From Castellaniella caeni NBRC 101664 (GTDB lineage: Bacteria > Pseudomonadota > Gammaproteobacteria > Burkholderiales > Burkholderiaceae_B): a stretch of DNA of 60,089 nt. The notes beneath the pieces were generated by a model that worked only from the letters and a program-made list of their open reading frames with translations, ran no database searches and was not told the origin of the DNA. Below are positions 12,268 to 50,972 of this stretch, piece by piece. Location of the stretch: NCBI RefSeq assembly GCF_001592225.1, contig NZ_BCWN01000024.1:1-60089 (forward strand). Direction: 5' to 3'. Position numbers and translations under genes: made by a program. The stretch's first letter is position 1; each line of letters opens with the position of its first letter.

Positions 12268-15162
12268 TCACAGGCGCGGCCCCGCCGGGTCTTGCAAACG
12301 CTGCTCGAACTGTTGCTGGTCGAGCGGCTCGCCCAGCCAGTAGCCCTGCCCCGCGTCGCAGCCCATTGCGCGCAGCAGCTCGTACTGCGCCTGGCTGGTG
12401 ATGCCCTCGGCCACGACGCGCATGCCCAGGCGGTGCACCAGCCCCACGATGGCTTCGCATACCAGTCGGGCCTGTTCGCTGGTGAGCACTTCTTCGGTGA
12501 TGCTGCGCTCGAGCTTGAGCGTCTCGAACAGCAGGTGGCGGGTGGCCAGCAAGGCGGGCATTCCCACCGAGGCCGCCCCCACACTGAAGCGCATGCCCAG
12601 CTCGTGCAGTTGCTGCAGGCGCTCGCGCACCATGGGGCTGAGGCTGACCAGCAGCTGCTCGTTGAATTCGAGCGACAGACTGTCGGCCGGCAGGTTGAGC
12701 ACTTCCAGCTGCCCCAGTACCGTCTCCAGGCCGGATTGCGCCAGGCCAAACTGCCCCGGCGAGACGTTGACGGTGAGACGCAGGCCGGGAGCCAGCGCCT
12801 GGCGCCAGTGCGCCAACTGCAAGATGGCCTCGTGGAACACCCAGTCGCCCAGGGGCCGGATCAGCTGCCGCTCTTCGGCAAACGGGATGAAGTCCATCGG
12901 TGCGATCACCCCGTAGTCGGGGTGCCGCCAGCGCAGCAGCACTTCGGCCTTGATGATCTTCTTGCTGCTGAAATCGTAGATGGGCTGGTACAGCAGAAAA
13001 AACTGCCCCGCTTCCAGCGCCTGGGGCAGGCTCACCAGCAGATCGTGCTGCATGTCCGAGCGCTCGCGGATCGACTCGTCGAAATAGCGGTAGCCATCCC
13101 GGCCCGCGGCCTTGGCCTCGTACATGGCCATGTCTACGTGGCGCATCAGGGTCTCGGCGGAATCGGCGTCTTCCGGATAGCGGGCCACCCCGAGGCTGGC
13201 GGACACTTTGATGAGATTGCCCGCCAGCTGGTAGGGCTCGGTGATGCCGTCGAGAATGCGCTGGCACAGGGCATCGAGCGCCGCGCGCGTGGCGCCCCCC
13301 ATGATGAGGATGACGAATTCGTCCCCGCCCAGGCGCGCCACAAAGTGCACGGACGGATCGGTGCAGTGCTGCAGGCGCTGGGCGACTTCGACCAGCAGCC
13401 GGTCGCCCATGGCGTGGCCCAGGGAATCGTTGACCTCTTTGAAGAGATCGAGATCGAGAAACAGCAGAGCCAGCGAACGCTGGCGCTGGTTGGCCTCTTC
13501 GACGGCGTTTTTCAGGCGCTCGTTGAAATACTGGCGGTTGGGCAGGTCGGTGAGCGGGTCGTGGTGGGCCTGGTTCCAGATGGCGGCCTCGACCTGCTTT
13601 TTCTGCGTGATGTCGCTGAGCATCGCCACCCGGCAATTGACAGAACCGTCGTGGTTCCAGGCGGTATCCAGCACCGCCCGCTGGGCGTAGTCTTCGCCCG
13701 ACTTGCGCTGCAGCCAGTACTCGCCCTCCCAGCGCCCCTTGGTGTTGATGGCATGCCACATCTCGTCGTAGAAGTCGCGGTTGTGGCGCCCCGGCTTGAG
13801 CAACGGCAGCAGTTCGCCCACCACTTCGTCGGGCCAATAGCCCGTGACGCGCGAATACGCCGGATTGACGTCGATGATGACCCCGGTGGCGTCAGTGAGC
13901 ACGATGGCTTCGCTGCTGTTTTCATAGGCAATGGCGGCCAGCTGCGCCGAGGACTCCGCCTGCTTGCTCTCGGTGATGTCCTGCACGAGGCCGATGGTGG
14001 ACATCTGCTCGCCCTCGCCCACCAGTGTGATGAACACCTCGATGTCCAGCAAAGAGCCATCTTTGCGCCGCCCGCGGCGCTCGAAGCGCACCGTGCCGTC
14101 CTTGCGTTTCTGGCCCACTTTGAGGGCCTCGTCCACGAGGTAGCGCTCGCGCGGGGCGATCACCGACAGCAGGGACAAATGCCCCGTCATTTCGTCGGGC
14201 CGGTAGCCGAAGATCTCGGCCATCTTGGGGCTGACGAAGCTGAAGCGGTCGCGCGCCAGCAGGAAAATACCGACGATGGCGTTGGCCGCGAGCCCCTGGA
14301 AGATGATCTCCGAGCGTTCGAGCCCTTCGCGGTCGGAGCGCATCTGGCTCAAGAGGGTCTGCATGCGGGTCGTGCGCGCATTGAAGGCCTGGGCGATATC
14401 GTTGAGTTCGCCCACCCCGCCGCCGTCAGCCACCTGCGTCACCATGTCGCCGCGCAGCAGCTCTCTGGCGGCACGGTGCACACGCTGCAAGGGGTGCAGC
14501 ACGCGATAGTGGACAAAGAGGAAAGCCCCCAACAGCAGCAGGAGGTCGGCCAGCACGATACCAAAGAGCCAGGCCATCGCCTGATCTTTGCTCTGGCGCA
14601 GCTGGGGCATCAGCGCGTTCAGGGCGGCATTGAGCGAGCCCAGCAGCGTGGCGGCGTCATCGGCGATCCATTGTCGCTGCACGGTGTGCGGCAGGTCGCG
14701 CGCGTCGGCGGGCGCCTCGTTGCGCGAATACGAGTCGAGCATGACCGCCTGCAGGCGCCCGCGCAGCACCACCCAGTCACGGTGGATCTTGGGCAGGAAC
14801 TTGCGCACCTCCGGCTGGGTGATGGCCGCCAGTTCACGGTCATCGACCACGCCGCCCTGGTCGAAGGCCTGCAAAGAGCGATCCATGGCGTCGATTTCTT
14901 TACTGAGCTGGCCGGTCTGGAAGACGCCGCCATCGGACAGGCGCATGGCCCGCACGGCCAGCTGCTGGCTGGTGGTGCGCATGCCGTCGAGCAAGGAGGA
15001 CTGGTCGAGCGCGGTCTCATAGCGCGCCATCAGGGAATACACCAGCACCGCGTTGCCCAGCACGAACGTGAGCATGAGCACGTAGAACACGGCAGACAGC
15101 GCGCCCAGCCGGAATCGCGGGCGGACTGCAAGGGTGGCTGCATTCGGAGAAGGTGCTTGCAT
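12268..15162 (-). CDS. membrane PAS-PAS-GGDEF-EAL protein with degenerate EAL
   Basis: A 964-residue c-di-GMP signalling protein. Two membrane helices (about 25-46 and 190-215) enclose a periplasmic sensor region; a HAMP-like segment, two PAS domains (about 290-400 and 405-525), GGDEF and EAL follow. The cyclase motif GGDEF is intact at 612-616, but the RxxD inhibitory site before it is absent. The EAL domain has E740 (EVLLR for EALLR), VNVSPGQF and AEGIT, yet the metal-binding DDFGTG loop reads VGAASVG near 860, so both aspartates are missing. I expect cyclase activity with a non-hydrolytic, perhaps ligand-sensing EAL. It stands alone between lnt and the lyase gene. Confidence 0.9.
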   Translation of the reverse strand: MQAPSPNAATLAVRPRFRLGALSAVFYVLMLTFVLGNAVLVYSLMARYETALDQSSLLDGMRTTSQQLAVRAMRLSDGGVFQTGQLSKEIDAMDRSLQAFDQGGVVDDRELAAITQPEVRKFLPKIHRDWVVLRGRLQAVMLDSYSRNEAPADARDLPHTVQRQWIADDAATLLGSLNAALNALMPQLRQSKDQAMAWLFGIVLADLLLLLGAFLFVHYRVLHPLQRVHRAARELLRGDMVTQVADGGGVGELNDIAQAFNARTTRMQTLLSQMRSDREGLERSEIIFQGLAANAIVGIFLLARDRFSFVSPKMAEIFGYRPDEMTGHLSLLSVIAPRERYLVDEALKVGQKRKDGTVRFERRGRRKDGSLLDIEVFITLVGEGEQMSTIGLVQDITESKQAESSAQLAAIAYENSSEAIVLTDATGVIIDVNPAYSRVTGYWPDEVVGELLPLLKPGRHNRDFYDEMWHAINTKGRWEGEYWLQRKSGEDYAQRAVLDTAWNHDGSVNCRVAMLSDITQKKQVEAAIWNQAHHDPLTDLPNRQYFNERLKNAVEEANQRQRSLALLFLDLDLFKEVNDSLGHAMGDRLLVEVAQRLQHCTDPSVHFVARLGGDEFVILIMGGATRAALDALCQRILDGITEPYQLAGNLIKVSASLGVARYPEDADSAETLMRHVDMAMYEAKAAGRDGYRYFDESIRERSDMQHDLLVSLPQALEAGQFFLLYQPIYDFSSKKIIKAEVLLRWRHPDYGVIAPMDFIPFAEERQLIRPLGDWVFHEAILQLAHWRQALAPGLRLTVNVSPGQFGLAQSGLETVLGQLEVLNLPADSLSLEFNEQLLVSLSPMVRERLQQLHELGMRFSVGAASVGMPALLATRHLLFETLKLERSITEEVLTSEQARLVCEAIVGLVHRLGMRVVAEGITSQAQYELLRAMGCDAGQGYWLGEPLDQQQFEQRLQDPAGPRL

Positions 15163-15281: not shown

Positions 15282-16730
15282 CTATTTCATGGTGGAATAT
15301 CGAGCTTTTGAGCCGTCCTCCAGCCGCACGGCTTCAGTCAGCCGACGCAAGTCCAGGATCTGGCGGATGACGTCCTGCGGGAGATCGGGCTGGGCCGAAA
15401 CGACCTCGCTCAGAGTGCTTCCCGATGCCAGCGCTTCTTTTGCCAGCCGCGCCGCGCGCTCGTAACCGACGCAGGGCGTCAGCGCCGTGGCCCCGGCCAT
15501 GCTGCGCTCGAGATGCCGGGCACAGTTTTGCGCATCCGCGGCGATGTCCGCCACGCACTTCACCGTCAGCGTCGTCACGGCATTGCTCAGCAATGCCATC
15601 GATTCGAGCAGGCTGAACACGATCAGCGGTTCCATGACGTTCAGCTGAAGCTGCCCGCCTTCCGCCGCCAGGGTGACCGCCATGTCGCTGCCGATGACCC
15701 GGAAAGCCACCTGATTCACGACCTCCGGCACGACAGGATTCACCTTGCCCGGCATGATCGACGAACCCGCCTGCAGGGGCGGCAGGCTGATCTCGGACAG
15801 GCCGCCCCTGGGGCCGCTCGCCAGCAGGCGCAAGTCGTTGCAAATCTTGGACAAGGTCGTGGCGATGCGCTTCAAGGTGCCGGAACACAGCACCAGCGCA
15901 TCGACGTCCCACGACGCCTGCACCAAATTGTCCGCCGATACGAAAGAAATGCCAGTCGCGCGCCGAAGCTCGTCCAGGACGCTCGCCTGGTATTCCCGGC
16001 TGGCATTGATCCCGGTGCCGATCGCCGTGCCGCCGAGATTGATCCGTGCGCAGGCCGATGCCACCTCGCGCAGCGCCGTCCGGCCCTGCCGGACGGCGGC
16101 GGCAAACGCCATGAACTCCTGGCCCAGGGTCAGCGGCACCGCATCCTGCAATTGCGTGCGGCCCAGCTTCACGATCGCAGCGAACCGCTCGGCCCGCTCC
16201 TCAAAAGCATCGGCCAGCCCGGCCAGCGCCGCTTCGAGCCGCGGCAAGGTGAGCAGGATCGCCAGGCGCACCGCCGTCGGATAGACGTCGTTGGTGGACT
16301 GAGAGCAGTTCACATCGTCATTCGGATGCAGGCTGGCGTATGCCCCCCGCGCCAGGCCCATGATTTCCAGCCCACGATTCGCAATGACCTCGTTGACATT
16401 CATGTTCGTGGACGTTCCCGCGCCTCCTTGGAACATGTCGAGCGGAAACTGCGCCAAGTGCTGATCCGCCAGAATTTCCAGACAGACTTTGCCAATAACC
16501 GCCGCCTTCTCGGCACCCAGCAGCCCAACCCGCGCATTGGCGCGGGCGGCGGCCAGCTTCACGTAGGCCAGGGCATGGACGAAGGCAGGGAAGTCACCCA
16601 GGCGCGCGCCCGATATCTGGAAATTAGCCAACGCCTTACCTGTTTCCGCCCCATAGTACACACCTGCCGATACGGATGCCGCCGCATCGGGGTCGGCACC
16701 CGCATGAAACACCGCATCAAGTTCGTGCAT
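15282..16730 (-). CDS. aspA: aspartate ammonia-lyase family protein
   Basis: Member of the fumarase/aspartase superfamily; aspartase turns L-aspartate into fumarate and ammonia. The start at MHELDAVF gives 482 residues with the family's usual spacing before YYG; an in-frame ATG at 16775 adds 15 residues. GTSTNMNVNEV (105-115), the signature GSSIMPGKVNP (322-332) and GRTQLQDAVP (190-199; fumarases have GRTH) favour aspartase over fumarase. Odd features: the usual YYGVxTLRA reads YYGAETGKA, putting K32 at the position of E. coli Arg29, and HPNDDVNCSQSTND has C142 where Lys is common. Last gene of the transporter-ureohydrolase operon. The substrate could be aspartate or a derivative. Confidence 0.85.
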   Translation of the reverse strand: MHELDAVFHAGADPDAAASVSAGVYYGAETGKALANFQISGARLGDFPAFVHALAYVKLAAARANARVGLLGAEKAAVIGKVCLEILADQHLAQFPLDMFQGGAGTSTNMNVNEVIANRGLEIMGLARGAYASLHPNDDVNCSQSTNDVYPTAVRLAILLTLPRLEAALAGLADAFEERAERFAAIVKLGRTQLQDAVPLTLGQEFMAFAAAVRQGRTALREVASACARINLGGTAIGTGINASREYQASVLDELRRATGISFVSADNLVQASWDVDALVLCSGTLKRIATTLSKICNDLRLLASGPRGGLSEISLPPLQAGSSIMPGKVNPVVPEVVNQVAFRVIGSDMAVTLAAEGGQLQLNVMEPLIVFSLLESMALLSNAVTTLTVKCVADIAADAQNCARHLERSMAGATALTPCVGYERAARLAKEALASGSTLSEVVSAQPDLPQDVIRQILDLRRLTEAVRLEDGSKARYSTMK

Positions 16731-16798
16731 GAGAATCCCAATAGAATTTTCGACGCCCGGGCGCACCCGCGCCACGGCTGACCGCTATCGGCCAACAC

Positions 16799-16820
16799 GC
16801 TGTTCGGCCAACCGAACAGC
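16799..16820 (-). promoter_or_regulatory. perfect hairpin between ABC ATPase gene and aspA
   Basis: Nine-base perfect arms GCTGTTCGG and CCGAACAGC with a 4-base loop begin just after the ATPase stop codon and precede the lyase start by about 70 bases. Without a T tract it could be an mRNA-stabilising or attenuating structure that sets aspA expression apart from the transporter. Confidence 0.5.
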
Positions 16821-16823
16821 ACA

Positions 16824-17552
16824 CTAGTGGTTCAGAATCTTGGAGAGGAACGATTTCGCGCGCGCGGACGTATCGCCCGAGAAAAAGGCCGCCGTGGAGG
16901 TGTCGTCAATGATCTCGCCGCTTTCCATGAAAATGACCCGATCCGAGACCCGCTTGGCGAACCCCATCTCGTGGGTGACGACCATCATGGTCATGCCCTC
17001 TTGCGCCAGTTCCGTCATCACGTCGAGCACTTCGCTGATCATCTCCGGATCCAGCGCGGACGTCGGCTCGTCGAACAGCATGACGTTGGGATCCATGCAC
17101 AGCGAGCGGGCGATGGCCACGCGCTGCTTCTGCCCGCCCGAGAGTTCGGACGGATATTTGTGGGCGTGATCCGCCAGCCCCACCCGTTTCAGAAGCGCAT
17201 AGCCCTTCTCTTCGGCTTCTTTCTTGCTCCGCTTGAGCACCTTGGTCTGCGCGATGGTCAGGTTGCGCAGGATGCTGAGATGGGGAAAGAGTTCAAAGTG
17301 CTGGAAGACCATGCCGACACGCGTGCGCAGCCTGGCAAGATCCGTCTTCGCGCTCAAGATCGACAGGCCTTCGATCCGGATGTCGCCCTTCTGTATGGAT
17401 TCCAGCCCATTGACCGTCTTGATGAACGTCGATTTGCCCGACCCGGAAGGGCCACACACGACGACGATGTCACCCTTTTCGACCGTGGTGGAACAGTCCT
17501 TGAGCGCGTGGTAATTGCCATACCACTTGTTGATGCCACTGATCTCTATCAT
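16824..17552 (-). CDS. polar amino acid ABC transporter, ATP-binding subunit
   Basis: GlnQ/HisP-type ATPase of the polar amino acid (PAAT) importer family, 242 residues from [12 protein letters not shown]. That Met is preferred because a GGAG sits 6 bases before it; in-frame ATG and GTG codons lie at 17564 and 17576. Walker A is GPSGSGKST, the signature is [15 protein letters not shown], and Walker B is [15 protein letters not shown]. It is separated from its permease genes by the ureohydrolase gene, which argues that transporter and hydrolase share a substrate. Confidence 0.93.
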
Positions 17553-17657
17553 GATCGTCTCCATCGCCTCCTCCACTGGCCTGTCGGCCGTGGATGGCTT
17601 TTTCTTCTGTTTGGCCGCAGGGCGGCTGCCCGTCGGCCGCAGCCATCATGGGCCGCG

Positions 17658-18620
17658 TCACTTCTTGTCGAAATAGCCCGCCCGTATCGTCGCGCCGATC
17701 AGATTGACGATGAACCGGCCCGCCGTCACGCAGGTCAGTTGGCACGCAAGGTCTTTGCCCGGCTGGATTTCCACGATGTCCATGCCGACCACCCGCCCCT
17801 TGTTGACCAGCCCATGAATGAGCTGTCGGGCCTGCACGTAGGTCACGCCGCCCGGCGCCGGGCCAGCGACCGCCGGCATGATGCTGGGGTCGATGCCGTC
17901 GGCATCGATGCTGATGTAATAATTGCCGCCGTCCGGGATGCGATCCAGGATCGCCTTCATCCCGACCTCATGCAGTTCGTAGGCGCTGACCAGCACCGCG
18001 CCGTAGTCCCGCGCAGCGTCGTACTCTTCCTGCCGGGCGCTGCCCTGGGCCCGCAGGCCGATCTGGACGATGTCCTTGACGTGCGCCATTTCGGACGCCC
18101 GGCGAATCGGGCTGGAGAGGCCTTCCTTGACACCGTTCACATTGTCGCGCCAGTCCAGGTGCGCATCGACGTGCACGAGCGTGACCGGGGCGAACTCGTC
18201 GAACGCCCGCAGGATCGGCGTCGTAATCCCGTGGTCGCCGCCCAGCACGATGGGCAGAGCCCCGGCCTTGAGAATCCGGCGCACGGCGGCTTCCGCCTTG
18301 CGATAGTGATCACCCGGCTTGGCCAGATCGGGCAGCACGTCGCCGCAATCGACGAAGCGGATGTCGTCACGCCCCTGCAGCAGGGCCCCATCGATATCGA
18401 AGTCGTAGTGATCCGGCTCCCGCACGATCCGGTCGCTGATGTCGCGCATCGTCTGCGGGGTATGGCTCTGGTCGTTCGTGAACGATTTCGGGCTGTATGC
18501 GGCGCCGAACGGCATGCCCAGAATGGCGATGTCGGCCTTGAGGTTGTCGAGATCCTGCGCGGGCTCGGAATACAGCAGCGTCTTGTGTCCGGTGCGCGGG
18601 GGTACGGTCAGTTGTTCCAT
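17658..18620 (-). CDS. ureohydrolase (agmatinase/guanidino-acid hydrolase family)
   Basis: Binuclear-metal hydrolase releasing urea from a guanidino compound. All six ligands are visible: H130 (GGDHG), D152, H154 and D156 (DAHLD), D239 and D241 (SIDADGIDP). The 320-residue length fits agmatinase-type enzymes. The loop after the last ligand reads MPAVAGPAPGG instead of the TGTP-containing loop usual in agmatinases and guanidinobutyrases, so the substrate is uncertain. AAGGAG lies 7 bases before the ATG. It is embedded between permease and ATPase genes of an amino acid importer and upstream of an aspartase relative, suggesting an imported guanidino acid rather than agmatine from internal decarboxylation. 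Confidence 0.88.
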   Translation of the reverse strand: MEQLTVPPRTGHKTLLYSEPAQDLDNLKADIAILGMPFGAAYSPKSFTNDQSHTPQTMRDISDRIVREPDHYDFDIDGALLQGRDDIRFVDCGDVLPDLAKPGDHYRKAEAAVRRILKAGALPIVLGGDHGITTPILRAFDEFAPVTLVHVDAHLDWRDNVNGVKEGLSSPIRRASEMAHVKDIVQIGLRAQGSARQEEYDAARDYGAVLVSAYELHEVGMKAILDRIPDGGNYYISIDADGIDPSIMPAVAGPAPGGVTYVQARQLIHGLVNKGRVVGMDIVEIQPGKDLACQLTCVTAGRFIVNLIGATIRAGYFDKK

Positions 18621-18674
18621 GGATGACTCCTTAAAAAGTTAAGCGCGTCTCGTTGTTCCACCACGCGGCGGTTT

Positions 18675-19337
18675 TTAATCGGCATTCCACTTCGCGACGC
18701 GCTGCTCGAAGTAATTTCCCGAAAAATCAAGCAAGAGGCTGCACAGCCAGTACAGCAGCGCAGCCATGCCGAACACCTCGACATAGGCGAAGGTGGTGGA
18801 GGACAAAAGGTTGGTCTGGTAGGTGAGTTCCTTGAGGGCGACGACCGACAGAATCGAGGTCTCCTTGAACATCATGATGACGAGGCTTGTGGTGGGCGGC
18901 AGCAGAAACGAGAGCAGCTGCGGGATGACGATGTGCCACTGCACGGCGATCGGTCGCATCCCCAGCGAGACGGACGCCTGCGTCTGCCCTTTCGGCACGC
19001 TGTGCAGGGCGGCCCGCATGACCTCGCAGAAATACCCGCCCGTATAGAAGGCGACCGTGATCAGCCCGACGTACAAGTCCGAGAGCACCACGCCCACCTT
19101 CGGCAGGCCGAAGTAAGACAGGTAGACGATGATGAGAAAAGGAATATTTCTGACGACTTCCACATAGCATTTTGCAAACAGCCGCAAGACGGCGTACTTG
19201 CCCTCCGCCGCGTAGGCCAGCAGGCCGCCGATCAGGATGCCGACGGGGATCCCGATGACGCTCACCAGCGCGGTGATCTTCAGACCGCTCAGGAGGATGG
19301 GCAGCGACTCACGGATGACTTCGAGATCAACGAGCAT
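18675..19337 (-). CDS. polar amino acid ABC transporter permease (second)
   Basis: His/Glu/Gln/Arg-type (HisM-like) permease, 220 residues from MLVDLEVIRESLPI; a longer in-frame start at 19391 would run deep into the preceding permease gene. About five membrane helices are evident, with the EAA loop region around MRAALHSVPKGQTQASVSLG, which contacts the ATPase. The start overlaps the end of the other permease gene by 11 bases. Forms the channel heterodimer with the 19327-20007 product. Confidence 0.92.
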   Translation of the reverse strand: MLVDLEVIRESLPILLSGLKITALVSVIGIPVGILIGGLLAYAAEGKYAVLRLFAKCYVEVVRNIPFLIIVYLSYFGLPKVGVVLSDLYVGLITVAFYTGGYFCEVMRAALHSVPKGQTQASVSLGMRPIAVQWHIVIPQLLSFLLPPTTSLVIMMFKETSILSVVALKELTYQTNLLSSTTFAYVEVFGMAALLYWLCSLLLDFSGNYFEQRVAKWNAD

Positions 19338-20007
19338 TTGGCAACACCCTCGCGATTTTCCTTTCCACGAAACGGGAGAAGGACGACGCAATGAAGAGGA
19401 TCATGAAATACACGGCCGCCGCCGCGACAAACACCTGCAGCGGGAGATTGCTCTGCAGGTTGGCATCCCGCGCCAAGGCGGACAGCTCGGCCACCGAGAT
19501 GATGGACAGCAGCGAAGACGCCTTCAGCAGGATCGTGAACTCGTTGGTCAGGGGCGGCAGCGAACGGTGAAAGACCTGCGGCAGCAGGATGTACAGCCAG
19601 GTCAGGTGCTGGCTCATCCCCAGGGCGCTGGCAGCGGCGCCCTGGCCGCGCGGAATCGTCGTCAGCGCGCCGCGCAGTATTTCGCTGATATAGGCGGCGG
19701 TATTGCACGCCAGCGCGAGGATGCCGGCCTCCATCGGGCTGAGCTCTATCTGCAGCACGGTCGGGATCACGTAATACGCGATCAGGAGCTGTATCAGCAG
19801 CGGCGTGCCGCGAATGACGCTCACGTAAAGCCTGGCCAGCGCCTTCAGCGGCCGGGCGCCCTTGACCCGCACGAACAGGATGACAGTCCCCAGGCACAGC
19901 CCCAGGCAGAAGGCGGCCACGCTTGCCAGAATCGTCACCCCGGAGGCGCGCAGCACCCCCGCGTAGAAGGGGTCGAGGGCCCCCTGGGCGGTCAGAAAGT
20001 CGATCAT
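19327..20007 (-). CDS. polar amino acid ABC transporter permease (first)
   Basis: HisQ/HisM-type permease of 226 residues. Helix 1 spans about residues 19-42; the EAA loop is LRGALTTIPRGQGAAASALG. AAAGGAG lies 7 bases before the ATG, supporting this start. It follows the binding-protein gene by 32 bases and overlaps the second permease by 11, a standard PAAT layout. Confidence 0.92.
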   Translation of the reverse strand: MIDFLTAQGALDPFYAGVLRASGVTILASVAAFCLGLCLGTVILFVRVKGARPLKALARLYVSVIRGTPLLIQLLIAYYVIPTVLQIELSPMEAGILALACNTAAYISEILRGALTTIPRGQGAAASALGMSQHLTWLYILLPQVFHRSLPPLTNEFTILLKASSLLSIISVAELSALARDANLQSNLPLQVFVAAAAVYFMILFIASSFSRFVERKIARVLPNAR

Positions 20008-20039
20008 CGGGCGACTCCTTTGAAGAAGGCGCTAGGGCG

Positions 20040-20888
20040 CTAGAGGGCGCCAGCAGGCAGGTAATCCTTCGTCGGCAGATCCATGGTCTCGCCAAACCAC
20101 TTCTCCTGCAGCTTGGCGAGCGTGCCGTCGCTGCGCATGTCATCCAGCGTCTGATTGATGAAGGCGCGAATCTCCTTGTCCTTCGGGTTGGTCACCCAGG
20201 CCAGCAGTCGGCGCTCGCCCACCTGGCCGACGACGCGGTAGGCATCGGGCTTTTGCTTCATTTCGAGCGCCAGCACGTTGGAGGGCAGCACACCCACGTC
20301 GATGGTGCCGTTGACGAGCGCCACAGAGACGTCGGGATAGGACTGGAAGAGCTTCAGGTCGGCGTAGCCCTTCTTGCCCTCTTTTTCCAGCTGCTGGCTG
20401 TACTTCTGGATTTCAGGCTGGGCGAGCGATCCCATCTGCGTGCCGACGATCTTGCCCGCGATGTCGGCTCCCGACTGGATGGCCGTGTTGCTCTTTTTCA
20501 CCACCAGCATGGAACGCACCTCGCCGACGGGCTCGGTGAAGGCCACCTTCTGCGCGCGCTCTTTGGTGATGCCCACACTGGTCGCCACGAAGTCGAATTT
20601 CCTGGCGAGCACACCGGGCAAAAGCCCTTGCAGCGGCTGGTTGAGCTGATTGAGCTTGACGCCCAGCTTCGCCACCATGTGATCGAGTATGTCCTTGCCG
20701 TAGCCGACGATCTTGTCGTTCTGCACGAACTCGTATGGCTCGTAGGCCGCTTCCGTGCCGACCGTCAACTGCCCGCGGGCCTTGATGTCCGCAATGGTGC
20801 CGCCCGCCGCGGCATACGCGACGCTACAGGAAAGCGCGCTCACGGCGAGCACGAGCCGGGTCAATGCCTTTTTTCCGAAGGTGTTCAT
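20040..20888 (-). CDS. polar amino acid ABC transporter, periplasmic binding protein
   Basis: Solute-binding protein of the SBP_bac_3 family. The Met of MNTFGKKAL is chosen because AAGG lies 9 bases upstream; a nearer in-frame ATG at 20897 has no room for a ribosome site. A signal peptide occupies about residues 1-27 (cleavage near AYA-AAGG). The mature part begins IKARGQLTVGTEAAYEPYEF, the typical first lobe, and has the YGKDILDHMVAKLGVKL segment. First gene of the minus-strand operon and divergent from the LysR gene, its probable regulator. The ligand is unknown; context suggests a guanidino acid. Confidence 0.92.
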   Translation of the reverse strand: MNTFGKKALTRLVLAVSALSCSVAYAAAGGTIADIKARGQLTVGTEAAYEPYEFVQNDKIVGYGKDILDHMVAKLGVKLNQLNQPLQGLLPGVLARKFDFVATSVGITKERAQKVAFTEPVGEVRSMLVVKKSNTAIQSGADIAGKIVGTQMGSLAQPEIQKYSQQLEKEGKKGYADLKLFQSYPDVSVALVNGTIDVGVLPSNVLALEMKQKPDAYRVVGQVGERRLLAWVTNPKDKEIRAFINQTLDDMRSDGTLAKLQEKWFGETMDLPTKDYLPAGAL

Positions 20889-20946
20889 TTGTCTCATCCT
20901 TATTGTCGTAGGAAGTTCAAGTAGGCTATCGTATTTGCCATTCTCG

Positions 20947-20962
20947 AAAAATCGATATTTTT
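20947..20962. promoter_or_regulatory. AT-rich dyad in the LysR-SBP intergenic region
   Basis: Arms AAAAAT and ATTTTT flank CGAT, centred in the 79-base divergent gap just before the LysR gene start. LysR proteins commonly bind AT-rich interrupted dyads here to repress themselves and activate the divergent operon. Confidence 0.45.
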
Positions 20963-20967
20963 GAAAC

Positions 20968-21879
20968 ATGGTTACGAAAAACAAGACTTCGTGGGGCAAC
21001 GGTGCCCCGCGCAGGCTCCTGACGGAACGCGACCTGAAATCACTGCGGGTATTCTGTGCCGCCGCGCAAGCCAGCGGCATCACGGCGGCCACCAGCCAGC
21101 TGCACCTCTCAAAAGCGTCGGTCAGCCGACACATCCTGGAGATCGAAGAGCGCCTCGGGGTCAAGCTGTGTGAACGCGGCCCGGGGGGGTTCAGGCTCAC
21201 GAACGCCGGCACCGTCGCCCTGGAGGTAACGAGCCGGGCGCTGCGCGCCCTGGATCGCATCCAGCCCGACATCGATGCCGCCACCGGCGTGCTGACGGGG
21301 CCGCTGACCATCGGGCTGGTCGAGCACATCCTCACGGATCCCGCCTGCACCCTGCCGACCGCCCTGAACGAGCTGCGCCATCGGGCGCCGGACGTCTATC
21401 CGGAAATCGTCGTCTTGACGCACACCCAGCTCAATCGGGCGCTGCGCGAGCGTCGCGTGCAGATCGCCATACGGGGGCAATATCAGCGGGATCGCACTTT
21501 CAACTACCTGCCGCTGTTCGAAGAGCTTCACCGCTTGTACGTCGCACGCGATGTCAACGAACAGGCTGCCAGCCGACTGCAGCTGGTCTATCGACACCAT
21601 CCGTTCGTGGACAAGATCATGGCAACGGGCCGCTTCCAACGCGGGCCCGACGCTGGCGGACTGGAAGCCATCGCCACTTTCATCGCCACGGGCAACTTCA
21701 TCGGGATGCTGCCGGCCCACTACGCCGAGCTGATCAACGTGCGCTACCCCATCCGCCGGGTGGATGAAAGTATTGAATTTCGTAACCAGATCTGCGCCAT
21801 CACCGAGGCGTCGCGACCGCTACCGGCCAGTGCAGAGCTTTTTCTGGATATCCTGCAGTCTCAGCAGCCGTCGAAGTAG
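20968..21879 (+). CDS. LysR-type transcriptional regulator
   Basis: A 303-residue LysR protein. The winged helix-turn-helix occupies about residues 20-80 (LRVFCAAAQASGITAATSQ then ASVSRHILEIEERLGVKL), followed by the linker helix and a two-lobe effector domain from about residue 100. It is transcribed away from the transporter-ureohydrolase-lyase operon across a 79-base gap, so it most likely controls that operon in response to its substrate or a breakdown product. Its 3' end overlaps the convergent asparaginase gene by 19 bases. Confidence 0.92.
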   Translation: MVTKNKTSWGNGAPRRLLTERDLKSLRVFCAAAQASGITAATSQLHLSKASVSRHILEIEERLGVKLCERGPGGFRLTNAGTVALEVTSRALRALDRIQPDIDAATGVLTGPLTIGLVEHILTDPACTLPTALNELRHRAPDVYPEIVVLTHTQLNRALRERRVQIAIRGQYQRDRTFNYLPLFEELHRLYVARDVNEQAASRLQLVYRHHPFVDKIMATGRFQRGPDAGGLEAIATFIATGNFIGMLPAHYAELINVRYPIRRVDESIEFRNQICAITEASRPLPASAELFLDILQSQQPSK

Positions 21880-22850
21880 TGCTGTAACGCGTCGCGTTCG
21901 CGCGTGACGGTGAGTGCCAGCATCAGCAGGATGCGCGCCTTTTGCGGATTATGTGCCCCTGCGGCAACCAGGCCGCCCGCTTCATCGAAGCGGCTGTGCG
22001 TGATGGCGCCGGTGGGCACACGGCTGCTGCGCACGCAGGCAATGCCCGCTTTCACGGCCTGGGCCAGACCAGCCTGGGCATTGGGTGAGAGGCTGCCGTT
22101 GCCGCAGGCCGCCACCACGATGCCCGCCACCTGTGCGTCGATGGATGCCCGATAGTGATGCAGTCCCGCGCTCTGGTGGTCGTAGATGATGTCCACGTCC
22201 GGCAGTCGCGCCAGCCCCGCCAGGCTGAAGGTCGGCGCGTCAGGATGCAGGCCGACGGGCACCTGGTACAAATGCACCTGGCCGTCGCGCACAGACCCCA
22301 GGCTGCCCTGGTCGGGCGCCCCAAAGGCATCGACGCGCGTGGTGTGAAACTTGCTGACGAAGCGCGCGGCAAAAAACTGGTCGTTGAGCGTGACCAGCAC
22401 CCCCAGCCCGCGGGCCTTGGGGCTGGCCGCCAGCACCAGCGCGTTATACAGGTTGAGCCGCCCATCGGCGCTGATCGCCGAACTGGGGCGCATGGCCCCC
22501 ACGATCACGACCGGCTTGCTCGACTGCAGCGTGAGGCTCAGGAAATAGGCGGTTTCTTCGAGGGTGTCGGTGCCATGCGTGATGACGGCGCCATCGATAT
22601 CGGGGTCGGCCAGCTGCGCCTCGACCTCGGCGGCCAATGCCAGCAGCATCGAATTGGTGATCTCGCGGCTGTCCACGTTGAGCGGCTGTCGGTACTCGAC
22701 CCGCATCAGGCGCTCGATGCCGCTGTCTTCACCCAGCAGCGCGCTGACACTTTGCGTGACGGCGTAGTCCGACAACGTGGTGGCGTCCGAAGCCGTGGAG
22801 GCGATGGTGCCGCCCGTGCCCAGCACGACGATGCGTGGCAAAGTTTTCAT
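21861..22850 (-). CDS. L-asparaginase (type II-like sequence, no signal peptide)
   Basis: Hydrolyses asparagine to aspartate and ammonia. The first active-site block is GTGGTIAS (residues 11-18, Thr15 the likely nucleophile) and the second is THGTDTLEETAYF; GAMRPSS contains the usual AMRP motif. The 329-residue length is standard. The N-terminus goes straight into the first strand (MKTLPRIVVLGTGG), so no export signal is seen and a cytoplasmic location is likely although the sequence looks like the AnsB clade. It ends 3' to 3' with the LysR gene; its product aspartate could feed the nearby aspartase-type lyase. Confidence 0.93.
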   Translation of the reverse strand: MKTLPRIVVLGTGGTIASTASDATTLSDYAVTQSVSALLGEDSGIERLMRVEYRQPLNVDSREITNSMLLALAAEVEAQLADPDIDGAVITHGTDTLEETAYFLSLTLQSSKPVVIVGAMRPSSAISADGRLNLYNALVLAASPKARGLGVLVTLNDQFFAARFVSKFHTTRVDAFGAPDQGSLGSVRDGQVHLYQVPVGLHPDAPTFSLAGLARLPDVDIIYDHQSAGLHHYRASIDAQVAGIVVAACGNGSLSPNAQAGLAQAVKAGIACVRSSRVPTGAITHSRFDEAGGLVAAGAHNPQKARILLMLALTVTRERDALQHYFDGC

Positions 22851-23344: not shown

Positions 23345-24649
23345 TCAGGCCTCTCTTTCAACCCCTCTGATGGACGGGCCTGGCAGCACACGCAACACCT
23401 CATGGACCGCCTGTGTCAAAGCCGTCAGCTCATCGTGCGAAATCACAAACGAGGGGGTCAGGTAGACCACTCGCCCCAGAGGCCGCACCCAGACACCAGC
23501 GCGCACGAACGCCCGGCAGAGCGCAGCACGATCCGGCACCGCATGCAGTTCGACGGCGGCAATCGCGCCCTTGACCCGGATCTCGCGCACACTGGGCAGC
23601 GCCTGGCAGACGGCGAGCTGTTCGCGCAACGTGGCCTCGATCCGATGCACCTGCGGCAGGCGGGGTTCGGTCGCGAACAAGTCGAGCGACGCCATGGCCG
23701 CGGCACAGGCCAGAGGATTACCCATATAGGTAGGGCCATGCATCAGGGCATGCCCAGGGTCGTCCGACCAGAACGCGGCGCACACACGGGCGTTGGCCAC
23801 CGTGGCGGCCAACGGCAAGGTGCCCCCCGTCAGTGCCTTGGACAGCGTCAGGATGTCTGGCTGCACGCCAGCCTGCTCAAAAGCGAACAAACTGCCCGTG
23901 CGCCCGAAGCCAGTGAAAATTTCATCGAAAATCAGCAAGACGCCATGCCTGTCGGCCAGCGCCCGCAAGCGCTGCAATACTTGCGGAGCATGCATGCGCA
24001 TGCCCGCGGCCCCCTGCACCAACGGCTCGACCAGAAGGGCGGCGATATGGCCCGCTTCTTGCTGCAAGACGGCATCCAGGCAGGCTTCGCTGGCCGCGTC
24101 AACGGGCAAAGGCATGACATCCTGCGCGGGCAGCATCGAGGCAAAGGCGGCATGCATGCCGATGGCCGGATCGCACACGGCCATCGTGCCGAAGGTATCA
24201 CCATGGTAGCCACCCGCAAAAGACAGGATACGCTGGCGCCGGGGCTGCCCCTGATTGAACCAATACTGGCGCGCCATCTTCATGGCCACTTCCACTGACA
24301 CGGAACCGGATTCGGTCAAGAAGACGCGCTCGAAGCCAGGCCCGAGCAGCGCGCACAAGCGGCTGGCCAGCGCCAGGGCGGGTTCATGCACGAGACCGCC
24401 GAACATCACATGCGGCAGACGGTCGAGCTGCTCGTGAATCGCCTGGACGATATGGGGGTGACGATAGCCATGGCACGCCGTCCACCAGGAAGCAATGCCG
24501 TCAATGAGCACCCGGCCATCAGCGAGGTGCAGCCGACATCCCTCGGTCGCTACGACGGGCAGGGGATCGTCCGCCGTCTTCATTTGAACGTAAGGAAGCC
24601 AGATATGAGGATGCCCGGCGTTCATCCAGGCGGGAGCGGAATTCAACAT
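23345..24649 (-). CDS. bioA: adenosylmethionine-8-amino-7-oxononanoate aminotransferase BioA
   Basis: PLP enzyme that uses SAM as amino donor to convert KAPA to DAPA in biotin synthesis. The 434-residue product has the substrate-binding GIASWWTACHGYRHP region, LIFDEIFTGFGRTG with the PLP-contacting Asp, and LTLSKALTGGTLPLA with the Schiff-base Lys. It is transcribed divergently from bioF-C-D-B across a 200-base gap, a common bio arrangement that allows joint control. Confidence 0.96.
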   Translation of the reverse strand: MLNSAPAWMNAGHPHIWLPYVQMKTADDPLPVVATEGCRLHLADGRVLIDGIASWWTACHGYRHPHIVQAIHEQLDRLPHVMFGGLVHEPALALASRLCALLGPGFERVFLTESGSVSVEVAMKMARQYWFNQGQPRRQRILSFAGGYHGDTFGTMAVCDPAIGMHAAFASMLPAQDVMPLPVDAASEACLDAVLQQEAGHIAALLVEPLVQGAAGMRMHAPQVLQRLRALADRHGVLLIFDEIFTGFGRTGSLFAFEQAGVQPDILTLSKALTGGTLPLAATVANARVCAAFWSDDPGHALMHGPTYMGNPLACAAAMASLDLFATEPRLPQVHRIEATLREQLAVCQALPSVREIRVKGAIAAVELHAVPDRAALCRAFVRAGVWVRPLGRVVYLTPSFVISHDELTALTQAVHEVLRVLPGPSIRGVEREA

Positions 24650-24849
24650 AGAAAGTTACAAATCATCCAAAACACGGAATACCCAAAAAACAGGACGCAT
24701 ACAGGGCAGATCGACAGCGGTTGACAGCCATTGTCATCAACGCACCGCTTCTTGAAAGACACTAAATGCCGCTAAAACACTGTCATCGTCAGCCTATTTA
24801 ATTATTATTGCCATTATTTCCAACGCAACAGAAAAACCTTGAGCAGATC
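24650..24849. promoter_or_regulatory. divergent bioA-bioF control region
   Basis: The 200-base gap must hold both promoters. A TTGACA hexamer is at 24721-24726, and TGACA-N5-TGTCA forms a short dyad at 24722-24736; TGTCATC recurs at 24732 and 24781. No sequence resembling the E. coli BirA operator (TTGTAAACC type dyad) was found, so the regulator is unknown. Confidence 0.4.
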
Positions 24850-26019
24850 ATGAACCAGTTCGACCTGCTGTTCGACCGTCAGCTACAGGCGCTGGAACAG
24901 CAAAATTTGCGTCGTTCACTGCACATCGCGGACACCGGCCCAGCCACCCGCAATTTCTGCAGCAACGACTACCTGGGGTTGTCCAGTCACCCCGCCCTGA
25001 TCGCCCGCAGCTGCCGCTATGCGCAAGACTACGGCGTGGGTGGCAAAGCATCCCGGCTGCTCAGCGGGACGCTGGCCTTGCACCAGGATATTGAATCCCG
25101 GCTGGCCCACGCCAAAGGCGCCGAGGCCTCCCTGCTCTTTGCCTCGGGCTGGCAAGCCAATGCCAGCCTGATTCCCGCGCTGATCGACGCCCTGGGCCGC
25201 GACACCCGGGTCTACGTCGACCGGCTGGTTCACGCCAGCCTGCACCAAGGGTGCCGTGCGGCAGCCGTACACCAGCACCGCTTTCGCCACAACGACCTGA
25301 ACCACCTGGAAACGCTGCTGCGCGCGCACCAGGGGCAGCCTGGGCGCGCGCTGATCATCACGGAAAGCGTCTTCAGCATGGACGGCGATTGCTGTCCGGT
25401 GGAGGCGCTCACCGCGCTGGCCAGGCGCCACGCGGCCTTCGTCTACCTGGATGAAGCACACGCGACGGGCGTCCTGGGGCCTGCGGGCATGGGGCTTGGC
25501 ACGCTTGCAGAAGGCGGCGCGCACCTGAGCATGGGCACCTGCAGCAAGGCCATGGGCAGCTTCGGGGCCTATGTCGCGGGTTCGCGCGCGCTCTGCGACT
25601 ACCTCGTCAACCGCTGCTCGGGCTTCAGTCACACAACGGCACTGCCGCCCCCCGTACTGGGCGCCATTGAAGCCGCGCTCGAACTCATCCCCGGCATGCA
25701 GGCCGAACGCGCGCATCTGCACGCGCAAAGCGCCCGGCTGCGCCAGCGCCTGCACGCCCTGGGGCTGGATACGGGCGCATCCAGCACCCAGATCATTCCG
25801 GTGCTCATGCGGGACACGCCCAGAACCCTGGCATTGCAGCGCCATCTGCACGCGCACGGGATGCAGGTCGGCGCCATCCGCCCGCCCACCGTACCGTCCG
25901 GCACCAGCCGTTTGCGCATCACCCTGACCGCCCGCCACACGGCAGCCGACATCGATGATTTGTCGGAGCAGATTCGCGTCGGACTGGATCACCCTCACCT
26001 GCTGCCGGCCAGCGCATGA
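24850..26019 (+). CDS. bioF: 8-amino-7-oxononanoate synthase BioF
   Basis: PLP-dependent condensation of pimeloyl-ACP and alanine to KAPA. Starting at MNQFDLLFDR gives 389 residues, the family length; an upstream in-frame ATG at 24808 adds 14 residues. FCSNDYLGLSSHP (36-48), D201 and H204 (YLDEAHATG) and the cofactor Lys233 (MGTCSKAMGSFG) are visible. The stop overlaps bioC in ATGA. Together with BioC this implies the BioC-BioH type pimeloyl route, although no bioH is in the window. Confidence 0.96.
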   Translation: MNQFDLLFDRQLQALEQQNLRRSLHIADTGPATRNFCSNDYLGLSSHPALIARSCRYAQDYGVGGKASRLLSGTLALHQDIESRLAHAKGAEASLLFASGWQANASLIPALIDALGRDTRVYVDRLVHASLHQGCRAAAVHQHRFRHNDLNHLETLLRAHQGQPGRALIITESVFSMDGDCCPVEALTALARRHAAFVYLDEAHATGVLGPAGMGLGTLAEGGAHLSMGTCSKAMGSFGAYVAGSRALCDYLVNRCSGFSHTTALPPPVLGAIEAALELIPGMQAERAHLHAQSARLRQRLHALGLDTGASSTQIIPVLMRDTPRTLALQRHLHAHGMQVGAIRPPTVPSGTSRLRITLTARHTAADIDDLSEQIRVGLDHPHLLPASA

Positions 26020-26885
26020 GCACGCACCACACGAACCCCACCGGGCACTCGGAGCCCGCAGGCCAGCCCTGGCAATGCTTCGACCGGGCCGCGCGGGGCT
26101 ACGAGCGGCATGCCCGCGTGCAACCCGCCATTGCCCGGCATCTGGCGGCGCTGATCCGCACACACGCCTTGCCCCGGCAAGCCCGCATCCTCGAAATCGG
26201 ATGCGGCACCGGCCTGCTCACACAAGCGCTGGCATCGCACTACCCCATGGCGCGCTGGCTGCTGACCGACCTGTCACCCACCATGCTGGAACAGGCCCGG
26301 CGCAAGCTGCCACCAGGCGAGCACAATCAGTGCCGGGTCATGGACGGGGAACATCCCGCATTTCCGCCCTCGCAGCCACGCTTCGACCTGATTTGCTCCA
26401 GCATGGCGTTGCAATGGTTCAGACACCCTGCCGAAGGCTTGGCGCGCCTGGCCCGATGGCTGGCGCCGGGCGGCATGCTGGCGGTGGCGGTTCCCACCAT
26501 GGGCTCCCTGGCCGAATGGCGGCAGGCACACACCGCCCTGTGCCTGGCGGCGGATACCCTGGCTTTCCCTGCGGCAGAGCAGTTGCAGGCCGCGGCAGCC
26601 GGGCTGGAAGGCGCATGCTCGACCCGGTCTTACACCGACCAATACCGCAACGCCCGGGAATTCCTGCTGGGACTGAAGGGCGCCGGGGCCACCACGCCCC
26701 AGACGCACCGCCGCCCGCTGGGAGCCGGTACGCTGCGCGCCGTCTGCCGCGAATTCGACCGGCAAGGCGCCCGCTGTACATACCAGGTCACGTTCGGCTT
26801 GTGGCACCGCCCGGGCGCCCCCATGAAGCCGCAGCACCCACCATGCGCATCCCGCCTGGCTCCGACACCCGACCGACAACCATGA
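26016..26885 (+). CDS. bioC: malonyl-ACP O-methyltransferase BioC
   Basis: SAM-dependent methyltransferase that caps malonyl-ACP so that fatty acid synthesis can build the pimeloyl chain. The 289-residue product begins with the family's FDRAARGYERHARVQ segment, then the SAM-binding ILEIGCGTGLLTQAL (motif I) and LLTDLSPTMLEQAR; SSMALQWFRHP is the BioC-specific QW motif region. It overlaps bioF upstream and bioD downstream by 4 bases each, so the pathway genes are translationally chained. Confidence 0.93.
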   Translation: MSTHHTNPTGHSEPAGQPWQCFDRAARGYERHARVQPAIARHLAALIRTHALPRQARILEIGCGTGLLTQALASHYPMARWLLTDLSPTMLEQARRKLPPGEHNQCRVMDGEHPAFPPSQPRFDLICSSMALQWFRHPAEGLARLARWLAPGGMLAVAVPTMGSLAEWRQAHTALCLAADTLAFPAAEQLQAAAAGLEGACSTRSYTDQYRNAREFLLGLKGAGATTPQTHRRPLGAGTLRAVCREFDRQGARCTYQVTFGLWHRPGAPMKPQHPPCASRLAPTPDRQP

Positions 26886-27574
26886 AGACACCACTGACAC
26901 CGCAAGCACAGCGACGCCCTCTGCAAGGGGTATTCGTGACCGGCACCGACACCGATGTGGGCAAAACCACGGTTTCCGCCATCCTGTGCAAGGCCTGGGG
27001 TGCCGATTACTGGAAACCCTACCAGACCGGAACAGCCAACCAAGTCGGCGACACGGAGACGGTGGCCGCGCTGCTGGCCTCGACGGCGCACACCTTGCAC
27101 CCGCCCGCCTGCACCCTGCGAGCCCCACTGGCCCCCTGGGCCGCTGCCCGCATCGAGCGGCAGGCCATGGACATGACGGCCCTGCAAACACCCACCAGCC
27201 AGGCCCCCATGGTGATTGAAGGCGCCGGTGGCCTGTACGTGCCGATCGACGAGCGCCACATGATGATCGACCTGGCGGCCTGGCTGGCGCTGCCGGTCGT
27301 GCTGGTCACCCGCAGCACACTGGGCACGATCAACCACACCCTGCTGAGCCTGCACGCGCTGTCCAGGCGCGGCATCCCGCTGCTGGGCATCGTCATGAAC
27401 GGCCCGCCCTCGCCCGGCAACCGACACGCACTGCAGCATTTCGGCGGGGTCGAGGTACTGGCCGAGATCCCCGCCGTGGCGCAGCTCGACGCAGAGACAA
27501 TTGCCGCACTGGCCTCCCGCATCCCGCCGCTCGACGCACTGTTGTCCCAAGCCGCGCCCCCCCATTTTGCATGA
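26882..27574 (+). CDS. bioD: dethiobiotin synthetase BioD
   Basis: ATP-dependent carboxylation and ring closure of DAPA to dethiobiotin. The ATG at 26882, in an ATGA overlap with bioC, gives 230 residues; the open frame extends upstream inside bioC without family similarity. P-loop [10 protein letters not shown] at 21-30, YWKPYQTG, and [14 protein letters not shown] are the diagnostic motifs. Confidence 0.95.
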
Positions 27575-50174: not shown

Positions 50175-50972
50175 ATGAAGAAATTTTCAGCCCTGCTGTT
50201 TGCTGCCCTGCTTCCCTTGGCATCGATGGCACCCGCCGCCCACGCGGCCACCGACGACCTCGCCGCCATCCAGAAGGCGGGCGTGCTGCGCATCGGCACC
50301 GAGGGCACCTACGCGCCCTTCTCGTTTCACGAACAGAAAGACAACAAGCTGGTGGGCTTCGACGTGGACATCGGGCGCGCCATCGCCAAGCAGCTGGGCG
50401 TCAAGGCCAAATTCGTGGAAGGCAAGTGGGACGGCCTGATCGCCGGGCTCAACGTCAATCGCTACGACGTGGTTCTCAACCAGGTGGGCATCACCCCCGA
50501 GCGCGAAGCTAAGTACGATTTCTCCAAACCCTACATTTCCTCCGAAGCCGCCCTCATCGTGCGCGACAACAACACGGACATCCACTCGTTCGCCGACCTG
50601 AAAGGCAAGCGCTCGGCCAACACCATCACCAGCAACTTCGGCAAGCTGGCGCAGCAGCACGGCGCCGAGGTGGTGCCCGTGCAGGGCTTCAACGACGCCA
50701 TTGCGCTGCTCACCTCGGGCCGGGTGGACGCCACCGTCAACGACGAACTGTCGTTTCTCGACTTCAAGAAGCAGCAGCCCAAGGCCAAGGTGCGGGTCGT
50801 GGCAACCGACGCCAGCGCCGAATTCAGCCGCTCGGGCGTGCTGATGCGCAAGGATCAGCCGGCCCTCAAGGCGGCCATCGACAAGGCCATCGATGCCATC
50901 CGCGCCGACGGCACGTACAAGACGATCTCCGAGCGCTACTTCGGCGAAGACCTGTCCTCCAAGGTGCAATGA
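50175..50972 (+). CDS. amino acid ABC transporter, periplasmic binding protein (cystine-type)
   Basis: SBP_bac_3 solute-binding protein of 265 residues. A signal peptide covers about residues 1-24 (MKKFSALLFAALLPLAS..., cleavage near AHA-ATDD). VLRIGTEGTYAPFSFHE, LVGFDVDIGRAIAKQLGV and YDVVLNQVGITPEREAKYDF are the usual lobe-one blocks; the second lobe (GFNDAIALLTSGRVDATVND) resembles cystine-binding proteins such as TcyA/FliY, so cystine is the best guess for ligand. First gene of a binding protein-permease-ATPase operon directly downstream of ovoA. Confidence 0.9.
   Translation: MKKFSALLFAALLPLASMAPAAHAATDDLAAIQKAGVLRIGTEGTYAPFSFHEQKDNKLVGFDVDIGRAIAKQLGVKAKFVEGKWDGLIAGLNVNRYDVVLNQVGITPEREAKYDFSKPYISSEAALIVRDNNTDIHSFADLKGKRSANTITSNFGKLAQQHGAEVVPVQGFNDAIALLTSGRVDATVNDELSFLDFKKQQPKAKVRVVATDASAEFSRSGVLMRKDQPALKAAIDKAIDAIRADGTYKTISERYFGEDLSSKVQ

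Follow-up and report, generated by a model that had tools for sequence, protein, structure and literature searches.

A 60,089-nucleotide stretch of Castellaniella caeni NBRC 101664 (contig NZ_BCWN01000024.1, positions 1 to 60,089; hereafter the window) carries a minus-strand operon in which a ureohydrolase of the arginase family (UH) is encoded among the genes of an ATP-binding cassette (ABC) importer, together with an aspartase-like lyase and a divergent LysR-type regulator. The gene neighborhoods favor an N-substituted aspartate as the substrate of this system. We would give about an even chance to the more specific proposal that the substrate is guanidinosuccinate (N-amidino-L-aspartate) and that UH acts first, releasing urea and aspartate. 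In the proposed mechanism, the ABC transporter would import extracellular N-substituted aspartate, most likely guanidinosuccinate, UH would hydrolyze it to urea and L-aspartate, and, in Castellaniella and two other lineages, a recruited aspartase would convert the aspartate to fumarate and ammonia. A recruited asparaginase would feed the same aspartate pool, and LysR presumably activates the genes on sensing the substrate or aspartate. The substrate and its stereochemistry, which way each step runs and how the genes are controlled are inferences. The expected substrate is an acidic compound with a succinate backbone and no free alpha-amino group, bearing a guanidine or amidine that a ureohydrolase could take off to leave aspartate. 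Guanidinosuccinate, a 2-substituted succinate, is favored because it has all five properties.

The UH gene (17658-18620, minus strand), the proposed guanidinosuccinate amidinohydrolase, encodes a protein that scores 200.7 bits against PF00491 (cut-off 22 bits) and retains the metal-site motifs GGDH, DAHxD, DxD and E intact. H130, D152, H154, D156, D239, D241 and E284, which we take to be the metal ligands, are identical in all 86 aligned members of the UH family. The pair Trp157-Arg158, directly after DAHxD, is equally invariant (86 of 86; Arg158 codon at 18147-18149, minus strand). In a small alignment, the genome's own HutG has Arg in the Arg158 column and its arginase and agmatinase have another residue; in arginase, this column presumably contacts the substrate carboxylate. 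The His of the HGxP motif of arginase- and agmatinase-type enzymes is replaced by Ser in UH. As a clue to an acidic substrate, the Arg is suggestive only.

The Castellaniella genome (3.28 Mb, estimated to be 99.95% complete) encodes three further PF00491 proteins, each over one equivalog cut-off. UH itself falls short of the models for agmatinase (TIGR01230; 142.9 bits, cut-off 174.3), arginase (TIGR01229; 75.9 bits, cut-off 227.6) and formimidoylglutamase HutG (TIGR01227; 75.6 bits, cut-off 229.15), whereas the paralogs L123, L124 and L126 pass them in the same order with 252.4, 286.3 and 301.5 bits. A plain agmatinase, arginase or HutG was thus rejected as the identity of UH, which lies under all three cut-offs in a genome where another gene passes each. 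The AlphaFold model of UH (mean pLDDT 93.1) retrieved 1wog, GbuA and GpuA as the top three Foldseek matches; in the sequence comparison, the UH profile scores them at 150, 130 and 109 bits.

The importer provides a second line of evidence. In LAO and HisJ, Asp161 binds the ligand's amino group; in NocT and OccJ, two proteins that take N-substituted amino acids, the residues at this site are Ser and Asn (PMC4192606, PMC5740067). The periplasmic amino-acid-type binding protein of the operon (20040-20888, minus strand; SBP_bac_3, PF00497 over the Pfam cut-off) has one of the two residues expected for binding of free amino acids: the carboxylate-binding Arg is present (codon 20556-20558), and Pro (codon 20283-20285) stands in the column of Asp161. 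A like pattern was found in 71 UH-linked binding proteins of three types, 52 of which form one cluster (including those of the window and of three loci with two ureohydrolases) and 19 a second. All 71 keep the equivalent of Arg77, the carboxylate-binding residue, and at the Asp161 column there are 49 Pro, 22 Gly and no Asp or Glu. As a control, 30 SBP_bac_3 proteins of relatives (30 of 56 matches) were aligned. The Asp161 column could be aligned in 27, with Asp or Glu in 21 of them, and the Arg77 equivalent is present in 28 of the 30, the remaining two being gaps. A second SBP_bac_3 match in the window (50286-50948, plus strand; L206) has Asp in this column. In Providencia, a gene of the sodium/glutamate symporter family PF03616 precedes UH in all five loci fetched; the one at L071 scores 343.8 bits, and the other four were assigned by their 80-91% identity to it.

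The sequence-only reading had proposed import of an acidic guanidino compound followed by urea release and an aspartase step, and had set a genome search for a recurring hydrolase-lyase pair beforehand as its test. The outcome of this test was favorable, with aspartases recruited next to UH on three or more separate occasions. The window's lyase (15282-16730, minus strand; PF00206 and PF10415; the longest open reading frame [ORF] starts at GTG 16775) passes the aspartase subfamily NF008909 (625.9 bits, cut-off 510), a weak test that the fumarase L128 also passes (518.4 bits). It lies under the aspA equivalog TIGR00839 (542 bits, cut-off 681.2) and scores lower still as a class II fumarase (TIGR00979; 439.9 bits, cut-off 664.75). 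Four proteins in the genome match the aspA model, none over the cut-off, and the operon lyase is the best of them. Since the runner-up (L128, the C11 gene) is a class II fumarase (TIGR00979, 734.2 bits), the operon lyase is the sole aspartase candidate found in the genome. The inventory of the sequence-only reading was correct for the genes it named and overlooked a type II asparaginase (21861-22850, minus strand; TIGR00520, 366.1 bits against a subfamily cut-off of 314.3), to which no other PF00710 match in the genome could be added.

To place these enzymes, an aspartase tree of 35 rows was used, made up of 5 UH-linked proteins, one protein of L073 that is encoded on the opposite strand about 4 kb from UH, and the 29 best background matches. 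The UH-linked aspartases fall in three places, and the starred branches force at least three changes. A single UH-linked clade, and with it one ancestral UH-aspartase operon, was rejected (log-likelihood lower by 92.8; approximately unbiased test, p-AU 1.7e-5). Long branches (L073, L177, L203) call for caution in reading this tree, and the branch of the Castellaniella lyases is long as well. In Collimonas and Paraburkholderia, the lyases close to UH group with aspartase-type rows from the background set, and the UH-linked one of Collimonas passes TIGR00839 with 725.4 bits. On the UH tree (86 labeled rows, with 35 of the 82 inner branches weakly supported), aspartase requires at least three changes and asparaginase at least six. 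Paralcaligenes and Trinickia share the Castellaniella arrangement, in which the asparaginase gene precedes LysR; in Collimonas and Paraburkholderia antibiotica it follows the ATPase gene, and in Brachymonas it comes immediately after UH. Such varied placement across lineages suggests that the genes were recruited repeatedly on account of the aspartate product, although part of the linkage could come from common regulation of an asparagine/aspartate unit.

UH relatives are spread widely. With a threshold of E <= 1e-60, 20 of the 250 genomes searched in the family encode one (7 of 43 genera); with E <= 1e-45, so do 38 of the 398 searched in the phylum, only five of which, the own genome included, exceed 400 bits; among the 10 same-genus genomes listed, four have UH. 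The best 80 of 212 candidate stretches encoding a UH relative were taken as named loci, and neighbors were counted by tblastn with proteins of the window and its neighbors within about 6-7 kb of UH. These loci carry 22 labels, two of which are not genera (about 20 genera), and include Pandoraea (16), Herbaspirillum (15), Achromobacter (10), Paraburkholderia (6), Caballeronia (6) and Providencia (5). LysR is the most constant neighbor (77/80). A binding protein of the window's cluster is present at 52 loci and the second type at 21 others, a same-strand ATPase at 53, the symporter at five (all Providencia), and at least one of three transporter markers at 78. Of the enzyme-type neighbors, RidA occurs at 60 loci, MmgE/PrpD at 20, M20 at 11, asparaginase at eight (6 genera) and same-strand aspartase at four (3 genera). 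Alternative counts by ORF clustering were lower for some proteins (e.g., LysR 73, RidA 55, M20 9). Asparaginase and RidA were not seen together at any of the 80 loci, 12 of which have neither; among the 86 rows of the UH tree there are 10 with asparaginase, 62 with RidA and none with both.

The operon arrangement is more than chance, because the gene order is identical in three other loci of the same genus (L024-L026; 65-92% identity per protein) and the LysR-transporter-UH core recurs in many genera. Two Pseudomonas loci have only LysR, transporter, UH and ATPase genes, with no downstream enzyme recognizable by eye, so UH hydrolysis alone seems to be enough to yield a common metabolite. In most loci RidA, an iminodisuccinate (IDS)-epimerase-like protein or M20 is found instead. 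A second and more distant ureohydrolase follows the UH, binding protein and transporter genes in Pantoea, Winslowiella, Herbaspirillum chlorophenolicum and one further genome (L120 9764-14087, L121 9995-14107, L122 9935-14193 and L165 8913-14114). Its metal-site motifs appear intact by eye, and a hetero-oligomer like that of metformin hydrolase, or two substrates, is possible. In one Herbaspirillum locus (L115), UH is followed after about 2 kb by a gene for a class A beta-lactamase (12942-13913); the ORF cluster of this gene occurs at eight of the 80 loci, and the L115 member was the one scanned.

The MmgE/PrpD neighbors offer a further clue to the substrate. The nearest solved relative of the protein at L061 is IDS-epimerase (E 2e-44), followed by Bacillus subtilis IRG1 (1e-37). 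According to PMC12290011, the characterized members of this family use 1,4-dicarboxylates, and two of them are C2 epimerases or isomerases. Seven residues of IDS-epimerase were checked, namely H85, D88, H99, H150, K198 and K266 of 2hp0 (PMC12290011) and Tyr145, picked by motif as the catalytic Tyr; six are identical in all 20 MmgE/PrpD proteins. Other loci add further hydrolases: a zinc-deacylase-like (AstE/AspA) gene ends the operon at L050 and L051, and an amidase of the hydantoinase/carbamoylase family lies directly before UH at L167 (TIGR01879, 277.5 bits, cut-off 204). One speculative explanation is that the system imports more than one N-substituted aspartate and has a separate hydrolase for each. 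UH-linked RidA proteins (e.g., at L061 and L103) were inspected by eye in 7 of 55 cases, and these have Ser-Thr-Gly at the site of the catalytic Arg105 of E. coli RidA. These proteins may not be imine deaminases.

We tentatively suggest, at somewhat less than an even chance, that these loci represent the so far unassigned genes for breakdown of guanidinosuccinate, in the form of a widespread, modular arrangement of LysR and a DAHxDWR-type UH that takes in N-substituted aspartates and delivers aspartate, with exchangeable transporters and downstream modules. The transporters would be ABC sets with differing binding proteins or a sodium/glutamate-type symporter. The downstream modules would be asparaginase and aspartase, or RidA with the IDS-epimerase-like protein, the latter of which would allow use of both enantiomers.

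Several observations weigh against guanidinosuccinate as the substrate. The DAHxDWR motif also occurs in more distant ureohydrolases, about 40% identical to UH, which weakens the argument from this motif; since these proteins share it, the Arg alone is no proof of an acidic substrate. One of this wider group, 38% identical, is encoded in a transporter operon with an ornithine cyclodeaminase gene (577.7 bits, cut-off 350) nearby on the opposite strand (L172, 7023-13086), a context that suggests other substrates for the wider DWR group. Among the control binding proteins, 6 of 27 also lack Asp or Glu (Ser 3, Gly 2, Thr 1), and a control without Asp, L218, has a motif resembling that of the binding proteins at the two-ureohydrolase loci. 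Asp introduced into OccJ left binding unchanged (PMC5740067). The seventh IDS-epimerase residue, His150, is Trp in 20 of 20 MmgE/PrpD proteins. The simple pathway does not account for RidA, the commonest enzyme-type neighbor, or for M20. The lyase is an addition outside the UH core, and the linkage of either aspartase (4 of 80 loci) or asparaginase (8 of 80) is rare. Human AGMAT, a relative of UH, did not hydrolyze guanidinosuccinate at 10 mM (PMC9772407). Finally, urease alpha has no match in the Castellaniella genome, and all 15 matches to urea carboxylase fall short of its cut-off. Urea is therefore probably not used via either enzyme and is probably a waste product here. On balance, the part of the sequence-only reading that stands is the substrate class, in that an acidic guanidino or amidino derivative of aspartate fits the comparative evidence best; the lyase step does not belong to the core. 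For agmatine and arginine, which that reading had named as refuting substrates of the hydrolase, the genome encodes other candidate enzymes.

The alternatives draw on much of the same evidence. UH might act on an ordinary guanidino compound (4-guanidinobutyrate, 3-guanidinopropionate, guanidinoacetate, agmatine or arginine), with aspartase and asparaginase present for another reason, for example as an asparagine/aspartate unit that shares the regulator. We consider this unlikely. The closest solved relatives of UH are indeed named agmatinase, guanidinobutyrase and guanidinopropionase, guanidino acids without an alpha-amino group would suit the change in the binding protein as well, and asparaginase-aspartase pairs (ansAB) occur as units elsewhere. 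However, other genes in the genome pass the agmatinase, arginase and HutG cut-offs that UH does not reach, and the recurring partners are aspartate-type enzymes, the PF03616 symporter and the IDS-epimerase-like protein. Repeated recruitment of aspartase is also hard to call an accident, and no enzyme for gamma-aminobutyrate, beta-alanine, glycine or putrescine was found among the annotated neighbors, which are a minority of the flanking ORFs. In short, other guanidino acids fit the clue from the binding protein and miss those from the aspartase, the symporter and the epimerase.

An N-formimino acid is rather improbable as the substrate. Here a HutG-like UH would release formamide and aspartate from N-formimino-L-aspartate or act on another such acid, and the binding protein, aspartase and epimerase-like evidence fits equally well, as N-formimino-aspartate has the required properties too. 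UH also has in common with HutG both the Arg after DAHxDx and the Ser that replaces the His of the arginase/agmatinase type. Yet its profile rates the guanidine-type enzymes far over formimidoylglutamase 3m1r (59 bits), and no formimidoylglutamase is among the best 50 of 208 Foldseek matches (E <= 0.001). A dedicated importer would be odd for N-formimino-aspartate, which arises inside the cell as an intermediate when imidazoleacetate is broken down, and no imidazole-pathway enzyme was seen among the annotated neighbor proteins; the compound is thus a poorer fit to both the sequence similarities and the importer. Less probable still is an order in which the lyase comes first, splitting guanidinosuccinate into fumarate and guanidine, with UH hydrolyzing the free guanidine. 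In its favor, the superfamily includes argininosuccinate lyase, and the Castellaniella lyases have a long branch in the aspartase tree. UH as a guanidine hydrolase after the lyase was nevertheless rejected, since 76 of the 80 loci have no same-strand aspartase-type lyase near UH. The Collimonas and Paraburkholderia lyases group with aspartase-type rows, the former over the aspA cut-off, and in the fold search UH shares 25% identity with the guanidine hydrolase of Synechocystis and 23-24% with that of Nitrospira.

The proposed hydrolysis of guanidinosuccinate by UH has parallels in known systems. GbuA and GpuA of Pseudomonas have the same fold and metal-site motifs and convert a guanidino acid to urea and an amino acid; they are 31% and 28% identical to UH, which differs in having Trp-Arg after DAHxD and Ser-Ser-Pro where they have His-Gly-Thr. 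The closest solved relative, the 'agmatinase' of Deinococcus radiodurans (1wog; 30% identity, TM 0.85), shares the SSPxRRA motif with UH but has Phe-Thr after DAHLD. HutG, which acts on an acidic amino acid with an N-substituent, has Arg in the Arg158 column, yet UH lies under its cut-off and the genome has a separate HutG. Milstien and Goldman reportedly described, in 1972, a guanidinosuccinate amidinohydrolase activity in Pseudomonas chlororaphis that yields urea and aspartate, the same reaction as proposed for UH. We know of no gene for that activity, and P. chlororaphis is not among the 80 named loci; therefore, identity with the UH family cannot be claimed. A search of open-access literature found no bacterial guanidinosuccinate gene, operon or pathway in titles or abstracts. 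Iminodisuccinate degradation reported for Agrobacterium BY6 (an epimerase and a stereoselective C-N lyase) is similar in its N-substituted aspartate, its MmgE/PrpD epimerase and its C-N lyase. The differences are that UH would hydrolyze a guanidine or amidine, that the window's operon has no PrpD gene, and that His150 is Trp at the 20 related loci. Opine uptake by NocT and OccJ (PMC4192606, PMC5740067) likewise uses SBP_bac_3-type proteins with N-substituted ligands and no Asp161 equivalent. The UH-linked proteins have Pro or Gly in that column in contrast to Ser or Asn, and no opine oxidase was found among the annotated genes here.

If the proposed function is correct, it would supply genes for an activity that is not known to have been described other than biochemically since 1972. 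It would also assign a function to a ureohydrolase family that occurs in, among others, Achromobacter, Pandoraea, Herbaspirillum, Paraburkholderia and Providencia. The closest solved relative of this family carries the label agmatinase, although UH misses the agmatinase cut-off. Guanidinosuccinate is a uremic toxin found in urine as a waste product, and its removal would become testable with a defined importer and enzyme. A substrate rule would likewise become testable, namely that SBP_bac_3 proteins lacking a counterpart of Asp161 bind N-blocked ligands.

The sequence-only reading had listed a minus-strand binding protein, two permeases, ureohydrolase, ATPase and lyase with a divergent LysR gene, all of which were recovered with strand and position unchanged. 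Permease 1 (19327-20007) and permease 2 (18675-19337), both minus strand, of the polar amino acid type and over the PF00528 cut-off, overlap by 11 bases. The ATPase (16824-17576, minus strand; PF00005) is nearest GlnQ and lies under the cut-off of that equivalog; its start is ambiguous between GTG 17576 and an ATG a few codons downstream. All named operon genes exceed their Pfam cut-offs, and SBP_bac_3, BPD_transp_1 and ABC_tran together define a polar amino acid ABC importer, for which no substrate-specific equivalog cut-off was reached among the families shown. From the binding protein to the lyase, the gaps are 32, -11, 54, 81 and 93 bases. LysR (20968-21879, plus strand; PF00126 and PF03466) starts 79 bases from the binding protein gene, and the intervening 20889-20967 is presumed from its position alone to be the control region; no sigma-70-like site was found in it. 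The asparaginase gene is convergent with LysR, and 19 bases at the LysR end belong to both genes.

Around the operon, a long PAS-GGDEF-EAL-type signaling protein is encoded at 12268-15162, on the same strand as the lyase and 119 bases beyond it; its GGDEF and PAS models are over their cut-offs, and EAL was assigned from similarity to phosphodiesterases. A scan for terminator-like sites gave 11 against 4.3 expected in shuffles, and most of them lie inside genes. Biotin synthesis genes occupy 23345-27574, with bioA on the minus strand (TIGR00508, 535.9 bits, cut-off 405) and plus-strand ORFs that resemble bioF and bioD by eye.

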